Origin: Thraustochytrium sp. TN22
Taxonomy: Eukaryota > Sar > Bigyra > Thraustochytrida > Thraustochytriidae
Assembly: GCA_013306675.1 (NCBI GenBank)
Contig: JABLUY010000325.1
Coordinates: 1 to 33,383, forward strand
DNA: 33,383 nucleotides
Direction: 5' to 3'
In this document: positions 13,392-32,419 of the stretch, piece by piece
Position numbering within the stretch: position 1 is the first letter of the stretch
Layout: each line of letters starts with the position of its first letter
Translations under genes and position numbers: made by a program
Notes under the pieces: model-generated
What the model saw: the letters and a program-made list of their open reading frames with translations, nothing else
The model's database searches: none
Told to the model about the DNA's origin: nothing

Positions 13392-14096
13392 TCAGGGCAG
13401 CAACAACAGCGACAACAACAGCGGCAGCACGACGGACCATGGCGTAAGGCGGCCCGAAGCAAGATTACACAGGTCGTCCTGGCAGCATCGCACGCCCGTG
13501 CCTGTGAGCGTGGACTGCTCGCGCTCCTCGCAGGTGCGCGCACAACCGCGAATGTGGACGGCCTCAAAACCCCAGACCGCGGTCTTGCCGTAGCGGGAGT
13601 TCTGCGGCCGACGGAACTCGTCAATGCAAAACACCTCGTCCTCCGCGCATTCCATGGTCTGATTGGGCGCCAAGCCCGTGCTGCAGTCCGCGACGCCACC
13701 GCAGGCCTCCAGCTCGCGCGCGCAGGTCCACACTGGCGCGAGAGCGTCATCGTCCTCCGGCGGCGCCGTATCGCACTGGTCCTCGGTGGCGGTGCACGTG
13801 CGCGTCTGGTTATCCTCCGGGCCCTCGTACCAGCAGGTCTCCACGGTCTGCGTGCAGTTCGTGCTTCCCTCTGGCACTGCGGTTGGCGCCGTCAAGGTCA
13901 CCGCGTCCTGAAAAGCGCACTGCTCGATGCTCCACGCCGCCTCGGCGGCCGCCGCGTCGCCCAGCTCCTCCGCCTTGATCGCCACGCACTCCGGAAAGCA
14001 GTCATGGCGCCCCACGTAGCACGTCAGCGCCTCACCGCCTTGCGCCAGCACCGCCAGCACCGCCAACACGGCCAGCGCGGCCAGCGAGCGCGCCAT
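13392..14096 (-). CDS. Secreted GPI-type cysteine-rich protein with Ly6/uPAR (LU)-like domain
   Basis: Encodes 234 aa from the ATG at 14096. The frame continues upstream but only via a GTG at 14198, and the ATG places a signal peptide (MARSLAALAVLAVLAVLAQG) at the very N terminus. The mature protein has 18 cysteines. The C-terminal half (124-211) follows the LU order: spaced cysteines, then GCARTC, then VRCCQDDLCN, where CC-x-x-D-x-CN is the LU hallmark. It ends in a small-residue segment and a hydrophobic tail without a charged end, as in GPI attachment signals. NCT and two NQT sequons are present. The N-terminal half (26-110) is also cysteine-rich but lacks the CC motif. LU proteins in animals are surface receptors or ligands; any function here is unknown. 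It shares a 304-bp divergent promoter with DZIP1. Convergent evolution of the motif cannot be excluded. Confidence 0.85.
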   Translation of the reverse strand: MARSLAALAVLAVLAVLAQGGEALTCYVGRHDCFPECVAIKAEELGDAAAAEAAWSIEQCAFQDAVTLTAPTAVPEGSTNCTQTVETCWYEGPEDNQTRTCTATEDQCDTAPPEDDDALAPVWTCARELEACGGVADCSTGLAPNQTMECAEDEVFCIDEFRRPQNSRYGKTAVWGFEAVHIRGCARTCEEREQSTLTGTGVRCCQDDLCNLASGRLTPWSVVLPLLLSLLLLP

Positions 14097-21035: not shown

Positions 21036-21078
21036 AGCTAGCTATTAGCTAGAGAGCTAGCTAGCTAGTTTAGCTAGA
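21036..21078. repeat. CTAG/AGCT repeat spanning the stop codon of the 12-module gene
   Basis: Repeated AGCTAG words including CTAGCTAGCTAG. The TAA stop of the 21070-24819 gene and its last serine codon (AGC) lie inside the repeat, so the stop may have been set by repeat growth. Confidence 0.8.
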
Positions 21079-24000
21079 GGGGGCCTTCTTCTTGGGAATG
21101 CAGGCCGGAGACTGCGAGTCGTCGTACTTGCAGAACTTCTTCATGGGCTTGGAGGTGCAGTCCTCCTCGGTGGCCGCGGCGCACTCCTCGCGGAGCAGCT
21201 CCCACTTCTCGAGGTCGCTCATGTCGCGGCAGACGGAGTTGGCGTCCCAGACGCACTGGCTGGAGGAGGAGACGCAGATGTCCTCGGCGGCGCAGGCGGA
21301 GCAGTCGTCGTCGCAGGCGACGCACTTCTTGCCGGTCCAGCCGCAGGCAGCCGGGCTGTCGTTGCACTCGTCCTCACCACCGCAACGCTTGCACTCAAGC
21401 TCGCAGACCTTGGGCTCCTTGATGTCCGGAACGCAGAGGCCGCTCCTGAACTTGCAGTCGTCGTTGGCCTCGCACGTAGAGCTGGTGTTGAAGCCGGAGC
21501 ACGAGCCCACGGCGAGAGTCCACTGGTCGTAGGCCGTCATCATGCTGCAAGCGCCGTCCTTCCAGATACAGTCCTCGTTGGACCCGGCGCAGGTGGTCTC
21601 GGACCCGCAAAAGCCGCAGTCGTTGTAGCAGGCGCCGCAGACGTTGGACTCGGCGTCCCAACCGCACACGGAATAGCTGCCGAGGCAGTCGCTCTCGGAG
21701 GCGCAAACGGAGCAGTCGATTTCGCAAATCTCAGGAATGTCCTTGGGCCCGCACATGCTGTCCGCGTTCGAGTACGTGCACTTCTTCTGCTTGCGGCAGT
21801 CCTTCCTGTCCGTAATGGCGATGCAGTCCTTGAACACCTCGAGGAAGACCTCGTACTCCGTCATGGGCTCGCAGAGGTCGTCATCGCCGGACCACTTGCA
21901 GTCGAGGTGCGAGTTGGAGCAGTCGTCGGCGTCGGAGCAGAAACCGCAATCGTCGTCGCAGCTCTTACACTCGCCTTCCTCGGCACTCCAGGAGCAGCGC
22001 GTGTAACTGCTGTTGCAAGCCACAGGCTCCGCACACTTGTCGCAGAAGAACTCGCAGGTGTCAGGCGGGTCAACCTTGGGGAAGCAGGTGCTGGTCTCCT
22101 CATCGTACGCGCACACCTTGCGGAGCGACTTGCACTCGCTGGCCGAAACCGACAGCTCGCCGCAGGCGTCCGCGAGCACCAGGTACATCTCCACCTCGTT
22201 CATATCGCGGCACGCCTCGGTCTCCGCGTCCCAGGTGCACTCGTTGTCAGCCGAACAGGTCGCCTCGGTGGCGCAGGCGCCGCAGGTGTCCGCGCAGGAC
22301 TCGCACGAGCCGCCCTTCTTGCCGAGGATCCACCCGCAGCCGGCGTCGCTGCCCGCGCAGGTCTCCTCGTCGCTGCACTCGCCGCAGTTCAGCGCGCACA
22401 CCTTGGGCGCCTTGGCCTTGGGCTCGCAAATCTCGTTCTTGTTGTCCCAGGAGCAGCCGGACGGGCAGTCACGCTTGGACTCGAAGAGGGCGCAGGTCTC
22501 GGTAAGGTGCATGTACGCCTCCGTCTCGTCCATGGCGCGGCAGGCGGTGGCGTTCTCGACGGCGTCGTCCCAGATGCAGAGGTTGTCCGCCAGGCACAGG
22601 TCCTCGCCCATGCAGGCGGCGCAGTTCTCGTCGCAGGCGACGCACTCGCTACCCTTGTTGCCCTCGATCCAGCCGCACTCCATGGCGCTCGTGCCGCAGG
22701 TCTCTGCGGTGTCGCACTCGCCACAGTCCAGCTCGCAGACCTTGGGCGCGCTCTTGGAAGCCGTGCACGTCTCGGCCTTGTTGTCCCACTTGCACGTCTT
22801 CTTCGGGCAGCTGGACGACGACGTGAAGGAGCTGCAGATGAGCGTCCAGAAGCTCCACTCCTCGACCTCCGTCATGTCGCTGCACGAGCCCGCGACGCTG
22901 TTCCAGGCGCACAGGTTGAAGGCGGAGCAGGAGTTCTCCGTGCCGCAGGCGGCGCAGTTCTCGTCACAAGACTCGCAGCTGCCGTCCACCCAGCCACAGC
23001 CAGCCTCGCTCGCGCCGCAGGTCTCCTGGTCCTCGCACACACCGCAGGTCGTGGCGCAGACCTCCGGCTCCTTGCCCTTGGGCTCGCACTCGTCCTTGAA
23101 CTTGTTCCACGAGCACGTCTTCGACGGGCACGCCTTCTTGTCCGAGTACCCGCTGCAGGCGGTCTCCCAGTACTGCCACTCCTCGACCTCGGTCATCTCG
23201 CGGCACGAGCTGGAGCTCTCGTCCCAGGCGCACAGCGCGTCCGCCGAGCAGCTGTCCTCCGACCCGCAGGCGCCGCAGGCATCCTCGCACGAGACGCACT
23301 CCTCATCGATCCAGCCGCAGCCCGCCGCGCTCGCGCCGCAGGCCTCCTCATCGGCGCAAATGTCACACGTGTTGGAGCACGCCTCCGGCTGGTCGCCCTC
23401 GGGCTCGCACACCTTCCTGAACTTGTTCCACGAGCAATCCTTCGGGCAGTCGCTCTTGTCCGTGTAGAGCGCGCAGGTAGTCGACCAGTACTGCCACTCC
23501 TCGGCCTCGGTCATCTCGCGGCACGAGTCTCCCTCCCAGGCGCACAAGTTGTCCGCGGCACAGGTCGCCTCCGAGGCGCAGGCGCCGCAGGAGTCCGCGC
23601 ACGAGACGCACTCTTCATCCACGAAGGCGCACTCCGCAGGGCTGTTCACACAGGTCTCCTCGCCGTCGCAGAACTCGCAGCCCAGCTCGCACACCTCGGG
23701 CGCGCTGCCCTTGGGACCACAAACCTCATTCTTGAACTTGCAGTCCTTTGGGCAAGTCTCCTCGGACTCAAAGGTGGGGCAGAGGGCAGACCAGTACTGC
23801 CACTGCTCCATCTCCGTCATCTCGCGGCACGAGTCCTCCTCCCACGCGCACAGGTTCTCCGAAGCGCAGGTCGCCTCCGTGGCGCAGGCGCCGCACGTTT
23901 CCGCGCACGAAAGGCACTCGCCGTCATCAAAGGCGCAGACCGCTGGGCTGTCGCTGCACGAAGACTCGTCATTGCAGTACTCGCAGCTCACTTCACAAAT

Positions 24001-24819
24001 TTCCGGCGCGTCGCTCTTGGGCTCGCAAGCCCCCGACGACTTGGACCACTTGCAGTACTTGCTCAGCGAGTCGCAGGTGTCCTCATCCTCCACCGGCAGG
24101 CACTTGGCCTGCTTCATGATCCACTCCTCGTATTCGGTCATCTCGCGGCACGCCCCGTCGCCCATGGTGCAGAAGAGCTCGCTCGCCGAGCAAAACTCCT
24201 CGTTGTGGCATGACGAGCAGTTGCCGTTGCAGCTCTCCATGGGGTCCACGAGGCCACGGCATTCGTCATCCTGATGCGACCACGAGCAAAAGTCCATCGC
24301 GCGGCACGAAGCCCTGTCGTCTGCATTATCAGTGCAGTGCGCGTCCGTCTTGATGAGCACATCAATCTCCGAGAGCGCCGCGCACGAGTCCGAGCTCCAT
24401 GCGCAGTAGAGGCTCGCATCGCAATCCGTTTGCGACGCGCAGGTGCAGTCTTCGCAAAGGTCCGCGGCACTGTATGCGGGAACGCAGGTGGATGTGCCGT
24501 TCTCGCTCACAAATTTGCAGCGCGAGGCACCCGCATCGCCCGTCAGGGTGGTATACTCGAAGGTCAACGAAGAACAGGCGTCCTCGTCCTCGTTGAGCCC
24601 TGCGCACTTGGCCTTATCGTTCGCCAGAGCCACCGTGACATCTGTGATATCAACGCACCCTCCTTTCGTTTTCCACTCACAAACCCCCTCCCTTTTAGTA
24701 TTGCAACCGATCTCGCCATTGCACTTGCTGCATTTGTCCGCGCAAGTTGCCGCCGCCTCGGCGCGCGTGACCACAACACTGGCGATGACACCGACTACGA
24801 AGGCCGCGCGCAGCATCAT
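21070..24819 (-). CDS. Large secreted cysteine-rich modular protein, 12 PSI-like modules
   Basis: Encodes 1249 aa from the tandem ATG ATG at 24819. An in-frame ATG at 25164 would add 115 residues that do not look like a signal or conserved domain, while 24819 starts a clean signal peptide (MMLRAAFVVGVIASVVVTRA). The rest is twelve modules of ~100 residues. A typical one reads C-x2-C-x2-C-x5-C, then LCAW, C-R-E-M-T-E-x-E-E-W, C, C-P-x-x-C, C-x-P-K, P-x-x-C-x3-C-x2-C, CGW and C-x-S-C. The CxxC...C(A/G)W pieces recall PSI (plexin-semaphorin-integrin) cysteine patterns, but assignment is by eye. It is acidic with no membrane span or GPI tail, so probably secreted: an extracellular scaffold, wall or adhesion protein (speculative). 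The gene at 25680-29117 is its tandem paralogue. Confidence 0.88.
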   Translation of the reverse strand: MMLRAAFVVGVIASVVVTRAEAAATCADKCSKCNGEIGCNTKREGVCEWKTKGGCVDITDVTVALANDKAKCAGLNEDEDACSSLTFEYTTLTGDAGASRCKFVSENGTSTCVPAYSAADLCEDCTCASQTDCDASLYCAWSSDSCAALSEIDVLIKTDAHCTDNADDRASCRAMDFCSWSHQDDECRGLVDPMESCNGNCSSCHNEEFCSASELFCTMGDGACREMTEYEEWIMKQAKCLPVEDEDTCDSLSKYCKWSKSSGACEPKSDAPEICEVSCEYCNDESSCSDSPAVCAFDDGECLSCAETCGACATEATCASENLCAWEEDSCREMTEMEQWQYWSALCPTFESEETCPKDCKFKNEVCGPKGSAPEVCELGCEFCDGEETCVNSPAECAFVDEECVSCADSCGACASEATCAADNLCAWEGDSCREMTEAEEWQYWSTTCALYTDKSDCPKDCSWNKFRKVCEPEGDQPEACSNTCDICADEEACGASAAGCGWIDEECVSCEDACGACGSEDSCSADALCAWDESSSSCREMTEVEEWQYWETACSGYSDKKACPSKTCSWNKFKDECEPKGKEPEVCATTCGVCEDQETCGASEAGCGWVDGSCESCDENCAACGTENSCSAFNLCAWNSVAGSCSDMTEVEEWSFWTLICSSFTSSSSCPKKTCKWDNKAETCTASKSAPKVCELDCGECDTAETCGTSAMECGWIEGNKGSECVACDENCAACMGEDLCLADNLCIWDDAVENATACRAMDETEAYMHLTETCALFESKRDCPSGCSWDNKNEICEPKAKAPKVCALNCGECSDEETCAGSDAGCGWILGKKGGSCESCADTCGACATEATCSADNECTWDAETEACRDMNEVEMYLVLADACGELSVSASECKSLRKVCAYDEETSTCFPKVDPPDTCEFFCDKCAEPVACNSSYTRCSWSAEEGECKSCDDDCGFCSDADDCSNSHLDCKWSGDDDLCEPMTEYEVFLEVFKDCIAITDRKDCRKQKKCTYSNADSMCGPKDIPEICEIDCSVCASESDCLGSYSVCGWDAESNVCGACYNDCGFCGSETTCAGSNEDCIWKDGACSMMTAYDQWTLAVGSCSGFNTSSTCEANDDCKFRSGLCVPDIKEPKVCELECKRCGGEDECNDSPAACGWTGKKCVACDDDCSACAAEDICVSSSSQCVWDANSVCRDMSDLEKWELLREECAAATEEDCTSKPMKKFCKYDDSQSPACIPKKKAPSS

Positions 24820-25679
24820 CGTTCTCTTTCGTGTGGAGGCCGCCTGCTCCGCAGCAGGGGCTCCGCCTCGTGTTGCGTTCTGCTTCGCGCTCTGCCTTTC
24901 CAGGCAAGAGTTGGGGTTCTGCTCGCCTCGCAGGCTCGACGAATCTCTCGCTCGACGCGCCGGCCGCCTTGCGATCGGGCCGGCCGGAGCGAAACCGATC
25001 TCCACGTCCCAGCTGGTAGTCTGCAGTGAGAGGCCTTTGCGTGACGCCACATCATGGAAGGGCGGGCTGCCAGCATTTAACCTTCGTTCAACCGTCAAAT
25101 CTTCTTGGAAAAGCGCACTTTTTGTCGAGCGGATCGAGCGGCCATCCGATCCTGTCGCACGCATACTTTAGCGTTGAGCGGGCGTTGCCCTGGTCTGGAA
25201 GCTGCAATCGGCCAGCCAGATTGATGGCGCGCCTGTTGCGGCGTCCCTCCCCCACAGAAGATGTATCCGGTGAGCCCTGCTTTTCGTCAAATTCAACCGA
25301 GTGCCAGCCAACACAGCCCGGGCCGCCGCCGGCACGGTGGTGGCTGAGGCGCAGCACCGGTTAGCGAGCAAGCCACGCTCGCTCTGCAATACGCGCGAGG
25401 AGGTGAGGGCGATCATCGCGCGCGCGCAACTGACAAACTCAACTTATGCTGGCGCTCGCGATCTGCGGGTCAAGCATGGCTGATGCTACTGGCAGGTTCG
25501 TTACGAAAGCTCGGTCGAATTTCCGCTGGCTCTGGTGACGTTGGCCGCACGAAGTTTGAAGTGACCTTTGCTTCGATGGTGACTCGGACTTTACACTTGC
25601 AGGCTCTTTCTGGTCAGGCAGGGCTCACAATTTATTGATCTTTGATATCTGTTACACTTGACCCGTTCGTCATGTGCGT
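24820..25679. promoter_or_regulatory. Intergenic region between the two cysteine-rich paralogues
   Basis: 860 bp on the transcribed strand between the stop of the 11-module gene and the start of the 12-module gene. It should contain the former's 3' UTR and the latter's promoter and 5' UTR. The ATG is preceded on the coding strand by a purine-rich ACGAAAGAGAACG. Open frames here have no domains. No gene or tRNA is seen. Confidence 0.6.
25631..25636 (-). terminator. Candidate AATAAA polyadenylation signal
   Basis: AATAAA on the minus strand, 44 nt after the stop codon of the 11-module gene, in an AT-richer segment. Its position suits a polyadenylation hexamer; whether this organism uses that hexamer is unknown. 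Confidence 0.4.
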
Positions 25680-28600
25680 TCAACGGAGGAGACGCGCGCT
25701 GGGCGCGGCCTTCTTGGGCACGCAGGGCGGATCCTCGGCCGCCTCGTACTTGCACACCTTCTTGAGGGGCCGGGAAGTGCAATCCTCCTCGGAGGCGGCA
25801 GCACACTCATCGCGGAGGAGGTTCCACTTCTCGAGGTCGGTCATGTCGCGGCACGAGGTGGAGTCCCAGGCGCACTGGTTGCCGGAGGCGACGCAGGTGT
25901 CCTCTGCAGCGCAGGCGGAACAGTCCTCATCGCAGGAAACGCACTTGTTACCGTTCCAGCCGCAGGCGGCCGGACTGGCGCCGCACTCGGTCTCGTAGCT
26001 GCAGCGGCTGCATTGCAGCTCGCAGACGCGGGGCGCCTTGCGGTCCGGCACGCAGGCATCGCCCCGGAAGACGCAGTCGGCGTGCGCGTCGCACTCGGCG
26101 CTGTCCGAGAGACCAGAGCACGTGCTGACGGCGAGCGTCCAGACGTCGAAGGCGGTGATCTTGCTGCAGGTCTCGTCCTTCCAGATGCAGTCCTCGGCCG
26201 AGCCGCCGCAGGCGCTCTCGTCGCCGCAGAAGCCGCAGTCGTTGTCGCAGGTGCCGCAGGTGCCAGAGGCGGCGTCCCACGAGCAGGTGGCCTCGCTCCC
26301 GGAGCAGGAGGACTCGTCGCCGCAGATGGAGCAGTCCAGCTCGCACACCTGCGGCACGTCCTTGGGCACGCAGCCACCGGCCTGGCGCGAGTACGTGCAG
26401 TGGCTGTGCTTGCGGCAGTACTTGGCGTCATCAATGGACGCGCAGTCCGCGGTGAACTTGAGGTAAGCGTCGTACTCCGAGAGCGCCGAGCACGTGGTGG
26501 TGTCCAGGTCCCAGGCGCAGGCCAGGTGCGAGTTGGCACAGTCGTCGGAGCTGGTGCAAAAGGCGCAGTCGTCGTCGCAGTTCTTGCAGGTTGCCTCGGT
26601 TTCATCCCAGGAGCAGCGCGAGTAGCTGGCGTCGCAGGTCGTGGAGTCCGTGCACTCGGCGCAGTCGAACTCGCAGGTCTGCGGCGGGCGAACGGCCGGA
26701 AAACAGGTGAGGGACTCAATGTCGTACTTGCAGCTCTTGCGGAGCGCGTCGCAGGTCGCAGGCGAATCGGAGTACGCGCCGCAGTTCGCGACCAGCACGA
26801 AGAAGGCCTCGGTGTCGGTCATGTCGCGGCAGGAGCTGGTGTCAGTGTCCCAGGCGCACAGGTTGTCCGCCGAGCAGGTGGCCTCGGTAGCGCAGGCGCC
26901 GCAGACATCCTCGCAGGACATGCACTCGTCGCCTCGGCGGCCGGGGAGCCAGCCGCAGCCGGCCGCGCTCGCCGCGCACGTCGTCTCGTCGCCGCACTCG
27001 CCGCACTCAAGCGCGCAGTCCTTGGGCATCTTGCCGGCCGGCTCGCAGACGGCATCCTTGCGGTTCCACGAGCACGTGCCCTTGGGGCAGTCTTTCTTGT
27101 TGTCAAAGACCCCGCAGGTGTCCTCGAGCTGCTGCCACTCTTCCACGTTGTCCATGCCGCGGCACACGGAGGAGTCAGCGTCCCAGGTGCACAGGTTGTC
27201 GGCCGAGCAGTCCGCCTCGGCCGCGCAGGCGGAACACTCGTCCGCGCAGGCCATGCACTCGTCGCCGCGCTTGCCGGCGACCCAGCCACAGACCATGGGG
27301 CTGCTGGAGCATGCGGCCTCATCGCTGCAGACGCCGCAGTCCAAGGAGCAGTCCTCCGGCATCTTGCCGGCCGGCCCGCAGACCCCGTCCTTGCGGTCCC
27401 ACGAGCACGTGCCCTTGGGGCACTCATCCTTGGAGGCGAACTGGGCGCACGCGGTCGTCCAGAAGGCCCACTCCTCGACAGCAGCCATCGCGCGGCAGGT
27501 GCTCGCGTCGCTCTCCCAGAGGCAGCCGTTCGGGCTCGTGCAGTCGGCCTCGGCAGCGCAGGCGGCGCAGTTGTCCTCGCACGACTCGCACGTGCCATCG
27601 ATCCAGCCGCAAACCGCGGCGCTGGCGTCGCAGGTGCTCTGGTCGGCGCACACGCCGCACGTGTTGGAGCAGTCCTCGGGCTCGCTCCCCTTGGCCGAGC
27701 AGGTGCCAGCCATGCGGTTCCAGGAGCAGTCCTGCTTGGGGCACTCGTTCTTGCTTGAGTAGCCGCTGCACATGGTCTCCCAGTGCTGCCACTCCTCGAG
27801 GTCTGTCATGCCGCGGCACGTCGAGGCATCCGAGTCCCACGCGCACAGGTTGTCCGCCGAGCACGCCTCCTCCGAGAGGCAGGCACCGCACTCGTCCGCA
27901 CACGAGGCGCACACGCCGCTGTCCGCCAGCCAGCCGCAGCCCGCGGCGCTCCCGCCGCACTCGGTCTCGTCCGCGCAGACATCGCAAATCAGAGAGCAGT
28001 CTTCCGGGGCACTGCCCTTGGGGAGGCAGAGGTCCTGGAATTTGTTCCACACGCACGACTTGGGGCAGTCGTTCTTCTTCGTGTACGCGCCGCACGTTGT
28101 GGTCCAGTACTGCCACTCCTCGACCTCAGTCATGTCGCGGCACGCGCCGCTCTCCCAAGCGCACTGGTTCTCCTCCGTGCACGTTGCCTCGGTGGCGCAG
28201 GCGCCGCACGAGTCGGCGCACGAGAGGCACTCGCCATCCGAGTAGGCGCACACCGCCGGACTGGCGCCGCAGGTCGCCTCATCCGCGCAAAACTCGCAGC
28301 CGAGCTCGCAAACCTCGGGCGCGCTGCCCTTGGGCTTGCAGAACTGGGACGCCTTGGACCACTTGCAGTACTTGCTCAGCGTATCGCAGGTCGACTCGTC
28401 CGCACCGTCGCACTGGGACTCCTTCTCGAGCCACTGCTCGTACTCGGTCATGGCGCGGCACGCGCTGTCCTCGAAGGTGCAGAACAGCTCGCTCGCACCG
28501 CAGAACTCCTCGTTGTGGCACACCGTGCAGTCGCCGTTGCAGCCCTCCATCGGATCGACCGCACCGCCGCACGTCTCGTCCTTGTTCGACCACGCACAGT

Positions 28601-29117
28601 ACGACATATAGTTGCACGCCGGCTTGGACGCGCCGTGGGACGCGCAATATGCATCCGCCTTGATGAGCATCTCGATCTCGCTGAGCATCTCGCAGGCGCC
28701 CGAGTTCCACGCGCAGTTCAGGTTCGCATCGCACTCCGCCTGGAACTCGCACGAGCAGTCCTGGCACACCAGCGAAGAGTTGTACGCGGGAAGGCATGCC
28801 GATGTGATATTGTCCGTCACAAAGGTGCAGCGCAGGTCGCCCGCATCACCAGTCGGCATGTTCTGGCCGAAGGTCTCCGAGGTGCAGGCAACCATGTCTT
28901 CGTCGAAGGTCGCGCACTTCGTGGCGTCGAGCCCAAGCGAGGCCTCCACGCTATCATAGCATGTGCCAGACTGCCACGCACAGTACGCCGGGCCGTTGCT
29001 ATTGCACTTGATCCTGGTGCCGCAATCGCCGCATACCCCGGCGCAACCGGCGTCGGCGCCGCTCACAAGCGCGGCAGCGACCACGCCGAGCGCGAGGCCC
29101 GTGCGCGCCGCGACCAT
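25680..29117 (-). CDS. Large secreted cysteine-rich modular protein, 11 PSI-like modules (paralogue)
   Basis: Encodes 1145 aa from the ATG at 29117; the frame extends 14 codons upstream only to a TTG. The signal peptide MVAARTGLALGVVAAALVSG is followed by eleven ~100-residue cysteine modules of the same pattern as the gene at 21070-24819. The N-terminal cap (TGDAGDLRC, PAYNSSLVCQDCSC) and C-terminal cap (RDMTDLEKWNLLRDECAAA, CVPKK) align with those of the paralogue, so the whole gene was duplicated. The length difference of 104 residues equals one module. It is acidic and has no membrane span. Module 8 (SALSEYDAY) and module 9 (SKITAFDVW) pair with modules 9 and 10 of the longer copy. A GA-rich leader precedes the ATG. 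A secreted structural or adhesive role is inferred only from architecture. Confidence 0.88.
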   Translation of the reverse strand: MVAARTGLALGVVAAALVSGADAGCAGVCGDCGTRIKCNSNGPAYCAWQSGTCYDSVEASLGLDATKCATFDEDMVACTSETFGQNMPTGDAGDLRCTFVTDNITSACLPAYNSSLVCQDCSCEFQAECDANLNCAWNSGACEMLSEIEMLIKADAYCASHGASKPACNYMSYCAWSNKDETCGGAVDPMEGCNGDCTVCHNEEFCGASELFCTFEDSACRAMTEYEQWLEKESQCDGADESTCDTLSKYCKWSKASQFCKPKGSAPEVCELGCEFCADEATCGASPAVCAYSDGECLSCADSCGACATEATCTEENQCAWESGACRDMTEVEEWQYWTTTCGAYTKKNDCPKSCVWNKFQDLCLPKGSAPEDCSLICDVCADETECGGSAAGCGWLADSGVCASCADECGACLSEEACSADNLCAWDSDASTCRGMTDLEEWQHWETMCSGYSSKNECPKQDCSWNRMAGTCSAKGSEPEDCSNTCGVCADQSTCDASAAVCGWIDGTCESCEDNCAACAAEADCTSPNGCLWESDASTCRAMAAVEEWAFWTTACAQFASKDECPKGTCSWDRKDGVCGPAGKMPEDCSLDCGVCSDEAACSSSPMVCGWVAGKRGDECMACADECSACAAEADCSADNLCTWDADSSVCRGMDNVEEWQQLEDTCGVFDNKKDCPKGTCSWNRKDAVCEPAGKMPKDCALECGECGDETTCAASAAGCGWLPGRRGDECMSCEDVCGACATEATCSADNLCAWDTDTSSCRDMTDTEAFFVLVANCGAYSDSPATCDALRKSCKYDIESLTCFPAVRPPQTCEFDCAECTDSTTCDASYSRCSWDETEATCKNCDDDCAFCTSSDDCANSHLACAWDLDTTTCSALSEYDAYLKFTADCASIDDAKYCRKHSHCTYSRQAGGCVPKDVPQVCELDCSICGDESSCSGSEATCSWDAASGTCGTCDNDCGFCGDESACGGSAEDCIWKDETCSKITAFDVWTLAVSTCSGLSDSAECDAHADCVFRGDACVPDRKAPRVCELQCSRCSYETECGASPAACGWNGNKCVSCDEDCSACAAEDTCVASGNQCAWDSTSCRDMTDLEKWNLLRDECAAASEEDCTSRPLKKVCKYEAAEDPPCVPKKAAPSARLLR

Positions 29118-29512
29118 GTTGTCGCTCTCTCTCTCCCTTCCTCTCTCTTTTGCTTGCAAGTTTTTCTTCGTTTGGGGTTTGCGTCCCTCTCGGCGCTGGC
29201 CGAGGCGTGAGTGCCTAGCGGCCGAAGCGGATAGTCGCGTCTATCTTCGATGATGCTGCGTGATTGTGAAACCGTCTTCTCTCTTCACGTCCATGTACCG
29301 CGAGTGGCCCCTTCCGGCACCTGCACGCTACTTGCTGCCCACTGGCCGCTCACTGGACCATCCTCCCGGACCCAAGGTGCCAGACGGAGTGTCCGTTCAC
29401 CGGACATATCCTCATGCGGCGGCTTCCCAGGAGCGAGTTCCTTTGCCAAGACGACCAGGCGCGCGCCGCGGAGAGCGTTGCGGCATCCGCGTGGCCTGCG
29501 AGAGTGGGTGAC

Positions 29513-31120: not shown

Positions 31121-32419
31121 ATGGCCGGGGTGACCGCGCTGGTGGTGGCGCTGCTGGCGGTGGCGCTCGGCCACGTCCGACTCAGCGAGGCATGCTTCAG
31201 GAGCGATGCAAGGGTCAGCATGGCCGACGGTAGCCTGAAGAGCATCAAGGACGTGCGAAGCGGCGATGCAGTGCTCTCCTTCAACGAGGCCACTGGTGTG
31301 CTCGCGAACGCGACGGTCGTGAAGCTCGTGCGGTCCGAGGCGCTCGAGCTTGCGGAGGTCAAGTTTCGCGACTCTGGCTTTTCGATCTGGTCCACGCCGG
31401 ATCACCCGTACTGGAGCCACCGCGCGCGGGCGGTCGTCTCCTTCCGCCCGAGCGAGACGTATGGCCGCTACTTACTGGAGACGGCCGAGATGCTCAAGCC
31501 GAGCGAGGTGCTTGAGGACGTGCGCGGCCTTCCGGTACACGTATCCGCGTCAATCGCGCCGGCAACAGTCGCTCCCGTGTCTGTCTTCACACTCTCACTC
31601 GCGCCCACGCACTGGTACTATGTGGAGGGCGTGCGCGTGCACAACAAAGGCGGGGTCGGGAGAGGCGCACCCGGACATAAACCTTCGTCCTCGGGGACGT
31701 TCTGGTCAAGCAGTGGCGGCTCTTACTCAACGTCGTCGTCGACGTACTATTTCAACAGCTTCAACGGGCTGCACTGGGCCAACGTAATTTTCTACAGGCC
31801 GTCCTATAGTTCGAGCCCGACGTGTCAGGCTGATCAAACCCAGCCTGGGTGCAGCAACTCGACGGAGACCTCCTTCGCCTGTGGCTGCTCAGAGGGCATG
31901 GCCGTGGGCAGTAGCGACAGCGTCGAGCACACGGCGCCAGACGCCACGTCTTACGTAACCACCTCGTTCGGCTTCGACCCATGCCCGTCGGGGGCCGCTG
32001 CAGGCATCTGCACCAACGCCTCGAGCTTCGACCCATGGTGCGTGCCCAGCTGGCCAGCGAACCTGACAGCCGGCGACGCCGGCTGGGAGCACGTTCAATA
32101 TTACATCTACTCCCATTGCGCGTCGACCTACAAAGCCTGCGCCACCGACGCGAATTGCGACGCCTACCTCAGCAACGCAACGCTCCAAAGCGTCTACTAT
32201 ATCAGCCCTCTCCAGGAAGTCTGGAAGAGCTCCAATTCCTCGCTCTATGATGCCTTCCAGCAGTGCATGAGCTCAAGTCTGGTGTGGTGCGAGTGTGACT
32301 GGGAGACCTGCGACGAGTCCGGTCTAGACTTGGCAGGCATCCTCGGCATCATAGTCTTCTCCATCTTCGGGTTGTTGGTTCTTGTCAGGGCCTGCGTTTC
32401 CTGCTTATCTAACAAGTGA
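31121..32419 (+). CDS. Type I membrane protein with N-terminal Hint (hedgehog/intein) domain
   Basis: Encodes 432 aa from the ATG at 31121; the frame opens further upstream only at a GTG. A signal peptide (1-24) is followed at once by Cys25 of CFRSDARVSMADGSLKSIKDV, the classic Hint opening (C-F-x-x-x-T/A-x-V, then GD). Further Hint landmarks are GDAVLSF (49), TPDH (92-95, the TxxH block that activates the first bond) and YYVEGVRVHN (166-175), the C-terminal block with penultimate His and terminal Asn. Lys176 follows, so there is no Cys/Ser/Thr for splicing. Residues ~176-230 are Gly/Ser-rich. The rest is a cysteine-rich, N-glycosylatable ectodomain (NST, NAS, NLT, NAT, NSS sequons). One membrane helix (~402-424) and a short tail with two cysteines end the protein. 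C-terminal cleavage after Asn175 could release Hint; this is inferred. Confidence 0.88.
   Translation: MAGVTALVVALLAVALGHVRLSEACFRSDARVSMADGSLKSIKDVRSGDAVLSFNEATGVLANATVVKLVRSEALELAEVKFRDSGFSIWSTPDHPYWSHRARAVVSFRPSETYGRYLLETAEMLKPSEVLEDVRGLPVHVSASIAPATVAPVSVFTLSLAPTHWYYVEGVRVHNKGGVGRGAPGHKPSSSGTFWSSSGGSYSTSSSTYYFNSFNGLHWANVIFYRPSYSSSPTCQADQTQPGCSNSTETSFACGCSEGMAVGSSDSVEHTAPDATSYVTTSFGFDPCPSGAAAGICTNASSFDPWCVPSWPANLTAGDAGWEHVQYYIYSHCASTYKACATDANCDAYLSNATLQSVYYISPLQEVWKSSNSSLYDAFQQCMSSSLVWCECDWETCDESGLDLAGILGIIVFSIFGLLVLVRACVSCLSNK

Follow-up and report, generated by a model that had tools for sequence, protein, structure and literature searches.

The Hint-containing gene and its paralogues

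The window, that is, the whole 33,383-nucleotide stretch analysed, is contig C250 of a genome assembly of 37.9 Mb in 453 contigs. On its forward strand lies a gene for a 432-aa protein in which a signal peptide, a Hint domain (Cys25 to Asn175), a Gly/Ser-rich linker, an ectodomain with 14 cysteines and a single membrane helix follow one another in that order. The features of the gene, with the evidence for each, are as follows.

31121..32419, + strand: open reading frame of 432 aa with a type I membrane protein layout; no internal stop, two near-full-length paralogues (78% and 76%)
31121..31192, + strand: signal peptide, residues 1-24, predicted cleavage between A24 and C25; hydropathy, and small residues at -3 and -1 in all three full-length copies
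31193..31645, + strand: Hint domain, C25-N175; Pfam, NCBIfam and PDB profile matches, pairwise dN/dS of 0.22-0.38 among the three full-length copies
31193..31195, + strand: Cys25 (tgc), block A nucleophile and predicted mature N terminus; sequence, the only Cys of the Hint domain
31307..31315, + strand: N63-A-T glycosylation sequon within the Hint domain; same alignment columns in the four Hint copies
31394..31405, + strand: block B, T92-P-D-H95; sequence alignment of the copies
31610..31612, + strand: block F His164; alignment, block named after PMC4031507 and placed by eye
31640..31645, + strand: block G His174-Asn175 (cacaac), putative scissile bond between N175 and K176; Asn shared by L003, replaced by Ser in L002 and L004
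31646..31822, + strand: rapidly evolving Gly/Ser-rich linker and the segment after it; dN/dS of 0.48, 0.64 and 1.0 over residues 178-236
31823..32311, + strand: ectodomain, which has 14 cysteines and five sequons for N-glycosylation; sequence, PDB sequence-profile search without a match
32324..32392, + strand: transmembrane helix (about residues 402-424), then a tail of a few residues; hydropathy

A search of the whole genome with this gene returned five places: the window gene itself, the near-full-length paralogues L002 (78%) and L003 (76%), and two partial relatives. L004 corresponds to the Hint part only (38% identity) and encodes a secreted protein of 196 aa made of signal and Hint, while L005 corresponds to the ectodomain part only (37%) and has one internal stop. 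Genome searches with the L004 protein and the L003 ectodomain detected no further clear family member, the latter yielding one weak match (E 0.4, 25%). The layout proposed in an earlier sequence-only reading of this DNA, from signal through Hint, linker and ectodomain to helix, is kept in L002 and L003, and every full-length copy has 14 cysteines between Hint and helix. L003 is the longest form (601 aa) and continues beyond the helix into a cytosolic tail with CxxC pairs. The similar tail of L005 gave a sub-threshold FYVE match (E 1.8e-4), and no match was obtained for the L003 tail even with E values of up to 5 allowed. The window copy and L002 end directly after the helix; a remnant of the tail, with two stops, is present 3' of L002, and no counterpart of the L003 CxxC tail was found in the window.

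Signal peptides were called from hydropathy (above 1.6 over 19 residues) and the -3/-1 rule. The hydropathy threshold was exceeded at the N terminus of the window copy, L003 and L004, and no N-terminal 19-residue window of L002 reached it. All three full-length copies have an Ala-Cys junction at the predicted site (SEA/C, AHA/C and ARA/C), despite a length change of two residues. The sequon common to the four Hint copies fits a domain of the secretory pathway. For the ectodomain, no PDB match by sequence profile, no Pfam domain and no relative in the viral contigs was detected.

Identity of the Hint domain and its catalytic residues

The domain had been recognised as Hint by its motifs, and profile searches bore this out. 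Pfam PT-HINT (PF07591) matched residues 34-177 marginally (E=1.8e-6, 28.7 bits for a cut-off of 27.7), and was also above its cut-off in L002 and L003 and below it in L004. Pfam Hint (PF01079) matched 44 residues, 23-66, below its cut-off (5.5e-5), Vint matched the first half of the domain, likewise below cut-off (1.8e-4), and an intein match, weaker than that of PT-HINT, was also present. The NCBIfam profile intein_Nterm (TIGR01445) covered residues 25-96 at 2e-4 and 22.3 bits, under its cut-off of 24.5, and scored above it in the genome scan (26.2 bits for the window gene). When a profile of the four copies of the domain was compared with solved structures, 8w20 (1.3e-11) and 2lwy, a bacterial intein-like (BIL) domain (3e-8), were matched over the first half only; the matches to 6y75 and 6tmm (about 1e-8) spanned the full length of the domain. 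Profile matches and the motifs of blocks A, B, F and G together place the domain in the Hint superfamily, and the observation is real, not a product of chance.

The domain also looked intact at the predicted mature N terminus, as had been claimed: Cys25, T92-P-D-H95, H174-N175 and Lys176 are all in place. In the block numbering of PMC4031507, whose placement on the window sequence is our own, both the window copy and L003 carry Cys25 (A:1), Thr92 and His95 (B:7 and B:10), His164 (F:13) and His174 and Asn175 (G:6 and G:7). Position F:4, Asp in inteins, appears by eye to be Thr157 in the window Hint. The C-terminal His-Asn of type A BILs is present in the window copy and L003 and absent from L002 and L004, and Lys176 agrees with their lack of Cys, Ser or Thr at +1. 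As far as sequence can tell, the residue pattern is that of a type A BIL, not of Hog or Vint.

The Asn175 codon, AAC, is replaced by AGC (Ser) in L002. L004 has AGC (Ser) as well, together with Ala at the aligned Cys position and a Cys three residues earlier; this copy was trimmed by eye for alignment, and another alignment could use the earlier Cys. The reading frames of both remain open. Because Ser is unable to form the cyclic imide, a point of established intein chemistry, cleavage by Asn cyclisation is closed to L002 and L004. Self-release would thus be chemically possible in two of the three full-length copies and, by the chemistry of Asn cyclisation, excluded in the third (L002). The cleavage after Asn175 envisaged in the sequence-only reading is therefore upheld in part, since all the residues for Asn cyclisation are present in the window copy, but Ser replaces Asn175 in a copy 78% identical (L002) and in L004. 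Loss of Cys25, His95 or Asn175 in orthologues had been named as evidence against it, and such loss was found in part, as Ser in L002 and as Ser plus Ala in L004, which are paralogues, not orthologues. Their loss of Asn175 refutes cleavage as a family-wide rule, but not cleavage of the window protein. L002 has lost the residue that the cut requires, so the cut is not indispensable in all copies.

Selection between copies

Pairwise dN/dS among the three full-length copies was 0.38, 0.28 and 0.22 for the Hint domain, with bootstrap limits (0.19-0.78, 0.16-0.45 and 0.14-0.38) all below 1, and 0.28, 0.20 and 0.22 for the ectodomain. Higher values were obtained for the signal peptide (0.84, 1.3 and 0.67) and for the C-terminal part made up of helix and tail (1.1, 1.3 and 1.9, the first two being those of the window copy with the others). 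For the L002 Hint, the values were 0.22 with L003 and 0.38 with the window copy, in pairwise comparisons that do not isolate the L002 branch. The Hint domain is conserved in the comparisons that include L002, where it is not releasable by Asn cyclisation. Synonymous divergence between the window gene (31193-31651) and L002 came to 0.144 (limits 0.079-0.228) for the Hint and to a higher 0.336 (limits 0.226-0.487) for the ectodomain, with limits that just touch; the pattern would fit an exchange of the Hint half through gene conversion.

Proposed mechanism and competing explanations

We tentatively favour, at slightly short of an even chance, a reading in which a Hint domain resembling type A BILs and PT-HINT caps a membrane protein of the secretory pathway as an N-terminal head that can be removed, with release differing between copies. 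Signal peptidase would expose Cys25, and the folded Hint would then cyclise Asn175, aided by His164 and His174, so that the bond to Lys176 breaks. The products would be a free Hint of 151 residues and an anchored ectodomain with the Gly/Ser-rich stalk as its new N terminus. Because signal peptidase would make the cut on the N side, neither ligation nor a +1 nucleophile would be called for, in agreement with the Lys found at +1. The window copy and L003 may be able to release the domain, whereas L002, with Ser, would retain it unless another protease cuts, so that L002 must tolerate, or benefit from, a Hint that stays in place.

Release is supported by the recovery of Hint by several profiles, by the catalytic set of the window copy and L003, by the Cys that follows the signal in all three full-length copies, by the upstream stops that make a hidden N-terminal partner unlikely, by the dN/dS of the Hint (0.22-0.38) compared with that of the linker (0.48-1.0), and by the cleavage or release described for type A BILs and proposed for PT-HINT and MafB Hint domains. 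It is weakened by Ser in place of Asn175 in L002 and L004, by Ala in L004 and by Thr157 at F:4, and also by the absence of the L003 tail and a helix dN/dS above 1, given which the window copy may be decaying. A more specific version, which we regard as possible but rather unlikely, is that a Hint placed at the signal junction is excised without ligation, by signal peptidase and Asn cyclisation, as a timed prodomain, and that loss of the Asn in a sister copy turned it into a permanent domain.

The Hint could instead be a retained structural or binding domain that does not cleave, with Asn175 a leftover in two copies, and this deserves serious, if still tentative, consideration. Asn is missing from two of the four Hint copies, both with open frames and one of them (L004) with Ala at the aligned Cys position too; L004 is a secreted protein of Hint alone; and the L002 Hint has the low pairwise values given above. 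Yet each of the three full-length copies retains Cys25, T92, H95, H164 and H174, which is beyond the needs of a bare scaffold. It seems improbable that the window copy is a drifting duplicate, truncated and with a Hint now devoid of function: its lack of the L003 CxxC tail, the two stops in the L002 remnant and the strong divergence of the helix region among copies (dN/dS 1.1-1.9) agree with drift, but its frame is open, all 14 ectodomain cysteines are present, and dN/dS of its Hint and ectodomain is 0.20-0.38.

Two further explanations would place something ahead of Cys25. An uncut signal peptide might act as a short N-extein, a thioester at A24-C25 then removing the signal, transferring it to a nucleophile or splicing it to Lys176. 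L002 keeps Cys25 despite the loss of Asn, type A BILs are described as able to ligate through attack of a free amine on the thioester (PMC4031507), and a nematode Hog gene with a predicted N-terminal part of 15 residues has been reported (PMC2362128); however, a fair signal peptidase site precedes the Cys in all three copies and co-translational cleavage normally comes earlier, and we consider this explanation very doubtful. Alternatively, an upstream exon could add a domain before Cys25 and make the layout an ordinary hedgehog-like or intein-like one, since introns are possible in what is known from DNA alone, and the frame is open upstream of the ATG for 43 codons in the window, without an ATG, and for 61 codons in L002, with one. 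Stops three codons ahead of the ATG in L003 and eight codons ahead of it in L004 nevertheless make a hidden N-terminal partner unlikely; the signal peptide begins at the ATG, and long single-exon frames seem common in the window (up to 2398 aa, although these are mechanical frames, some antisense). Such an exon is thus highly improbable, in line with the earlier claim that nothing lies ahead of Cys25 to be joined.

Hints are known as C-terminal processors in hedgehog, as interrupting elements in inteins and as modules that release toxins. Release, if true, would mean that the fold is able to serve as a self-removing head when it stands at the N terminus of a type I membrane protein in a eukaryote. 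The natural pair of Asn (window copy and L003) and Ser (L002) offers a ready-made test of Asn cyclisation in vivo.

Other features of the window and the genome

This genome seems to harbour Hint domains of four kinds. A canonical-looking intein, beginning with Cys and ending in VVVHN followed by Cys, was detected at L031 (G000:C411:122105-122344:-), inside the cysteine motif of an apparent TYW1-type radical SAM gene, named by eye; TYW1, wybutosine and radical SAM are absent from the main text of a 2018 survey of eukaryotic inteins (PMC5784728). A VWA-Vint-like gene is present at L013 (C417:122797-122949:-), with PF01079 at 26.7 bits, below cut-off, and VWA recognised by eye. A second PF01079 match, above cut-off (30.4 bits), was found at L012 (C200:32453-32905:-), which we label Hog-like.

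On the reverse strand of the window, the adjoining and similar-looking long frames 21070-25167 (-) and 25680-29240 (-) appear to encode secreted cysteine-repeat proteins, and neither had a Pfam match at E 0.01. A small secreted-looking protein with a hydrophobic end resembling a GPI signal is encoded at 13395-14090 (-), and matched the three-finger (Ly6/toxin-like) profile Toxin_TOLIP (22.4 bits for a cut-off of 21.2, E 2.1e-4). Elsewhere in the genome, the frames between L004 and L003 (L033, G000:C433:36500-46400) carry what look like ankyrin repeats, and a C-terminal segment that resembles TIR. A match to omega-3 polyunsaturated fatty acid synthase of the PfaA type (2540 bits) is contained in a single frame of 3044 codons, and an oppositely oriented frame of 2083 codons, with weaker matches, is found a few kb away. 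This gene pair suggests that the host is a stramenopile of thraustochytrid type.

Comparison with known Hint systems

Type A BILs have His-Asn at their end and no nucleophile at +1, and what they yield is mainly the products of cleavage (PMC4031507, PMC7664689). The window domain shares with them the N-terminal Cys, the T..H of block B, the His-Asn end and a non-nucleophilic +1 residue, but differs in belonging to a eukaryotic secretory protein with no N-flank after the signal, and in having a full-length paralogue without the Asn. PT-HINT (PF07591), the best Pfam match, likewise stands ahead of a C-terminal module; it is described as directly preceding a toxin module that it is thought to free (PMC3482391). 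The window protein has only a signal peptide before the Hint, and downstream of it, instead of a toxin domain, a cysteine-rich, membrane-anchored ectodomain without a Pfam match and a helix, so that the toxin context of PT-HINT does not apply. The Hint domains of MafB have been called type A and proposed to release the C-terminal part (PMC4524018), whereas PMC7738311 places the cleavage probably in another domain, with Hint only perhaps helping, which counts against release by Hint.

A PT-HINT search of 100 genomes found ten places in five of them, including the bacterial genome G001, in which four frames were inspected: VHN closes every one of them, the +1 residue is Ile, Gln, Cys or Ala, and the open frame ahead of the domain is never shorter than 199 codons. 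Scored with a profile of the window domain, six bacterial PT-HINT loci (L044-L049) reached 21-36 bits and two phage inteins 24 and 29, while a seventh locus of that search (L051) and the genome's own Vint (L013) reached 14 bits each. These scores, from chosen loci in a set picked with PT-HINT (seven of its ten places, with L050, L052 and L053 left out, and no score listed for the Hog-like L012 or the TYW1-type intein L031), suggest a leaning of the window Hint towards PT-HINT and inteins over the genome's own Vint, not a tree. Related domains were also detected at two loci in viral contigs (L021 and L022), which we read as inteins in phage terminase-like genes, and at one in prokaryote contigs (L023), an Rhs-like protein with Hint. 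Phage records gave 23 weak matches, none of which reached 60% identity; among the 15 listed, 13 are annotated as helicase, NTPase or DNA-repair helicase and two as hypothetical.

A canonical intein was rejected, as no N-extein is left if the signal is cut and Lys at +1 is not a nucleophile. Hedgehog and Hog proteins of protists and animals also combine a signal peptide and Hint in a secreted protein, but there Hog is C-terminal to the released domain, and Hog genes are reported to be spread over protists with an N-terminal part ahead of the Hog domain (PMC2362128). Hog was rejected, since Hint is N-terminal in the window protein, stops lie upstream in L003 and L004, and the Pfam Hint match is confined to 44 residues. 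Vint was rejected as well: the match is weak and limited to the first half, Pfam found no VWA in the window protein, and the genome has a separate VWA-Vint gene (L013). A Hint-only polypeptide of Ministeria (PMC2346548) resembles L004 in having Hint without the hedgehog N-terminal domain, but is classed with hedgehog, and the available text describes no ectodomain or membrane helix for it.

In Ectocarpus, a Hint gene is reported as lowly expressed in female gametes (PMC3879662). The diatom Pleurosigma pacificum is counted as having Hint domains in more than 290 genes, and Seminavis robusta in 112 (PMC12803021), an abundance at which the layout might be more frequent than it appears. Among the titles and abstract openings listed on Hint domains and on thraustochytrids together with hedgehog, with few subscription journals covered, no signal-Hint-ectodomain protein of the window kind was seen. 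The layout of the window protein is genuine and is unusual among the Hint proteins compared here.
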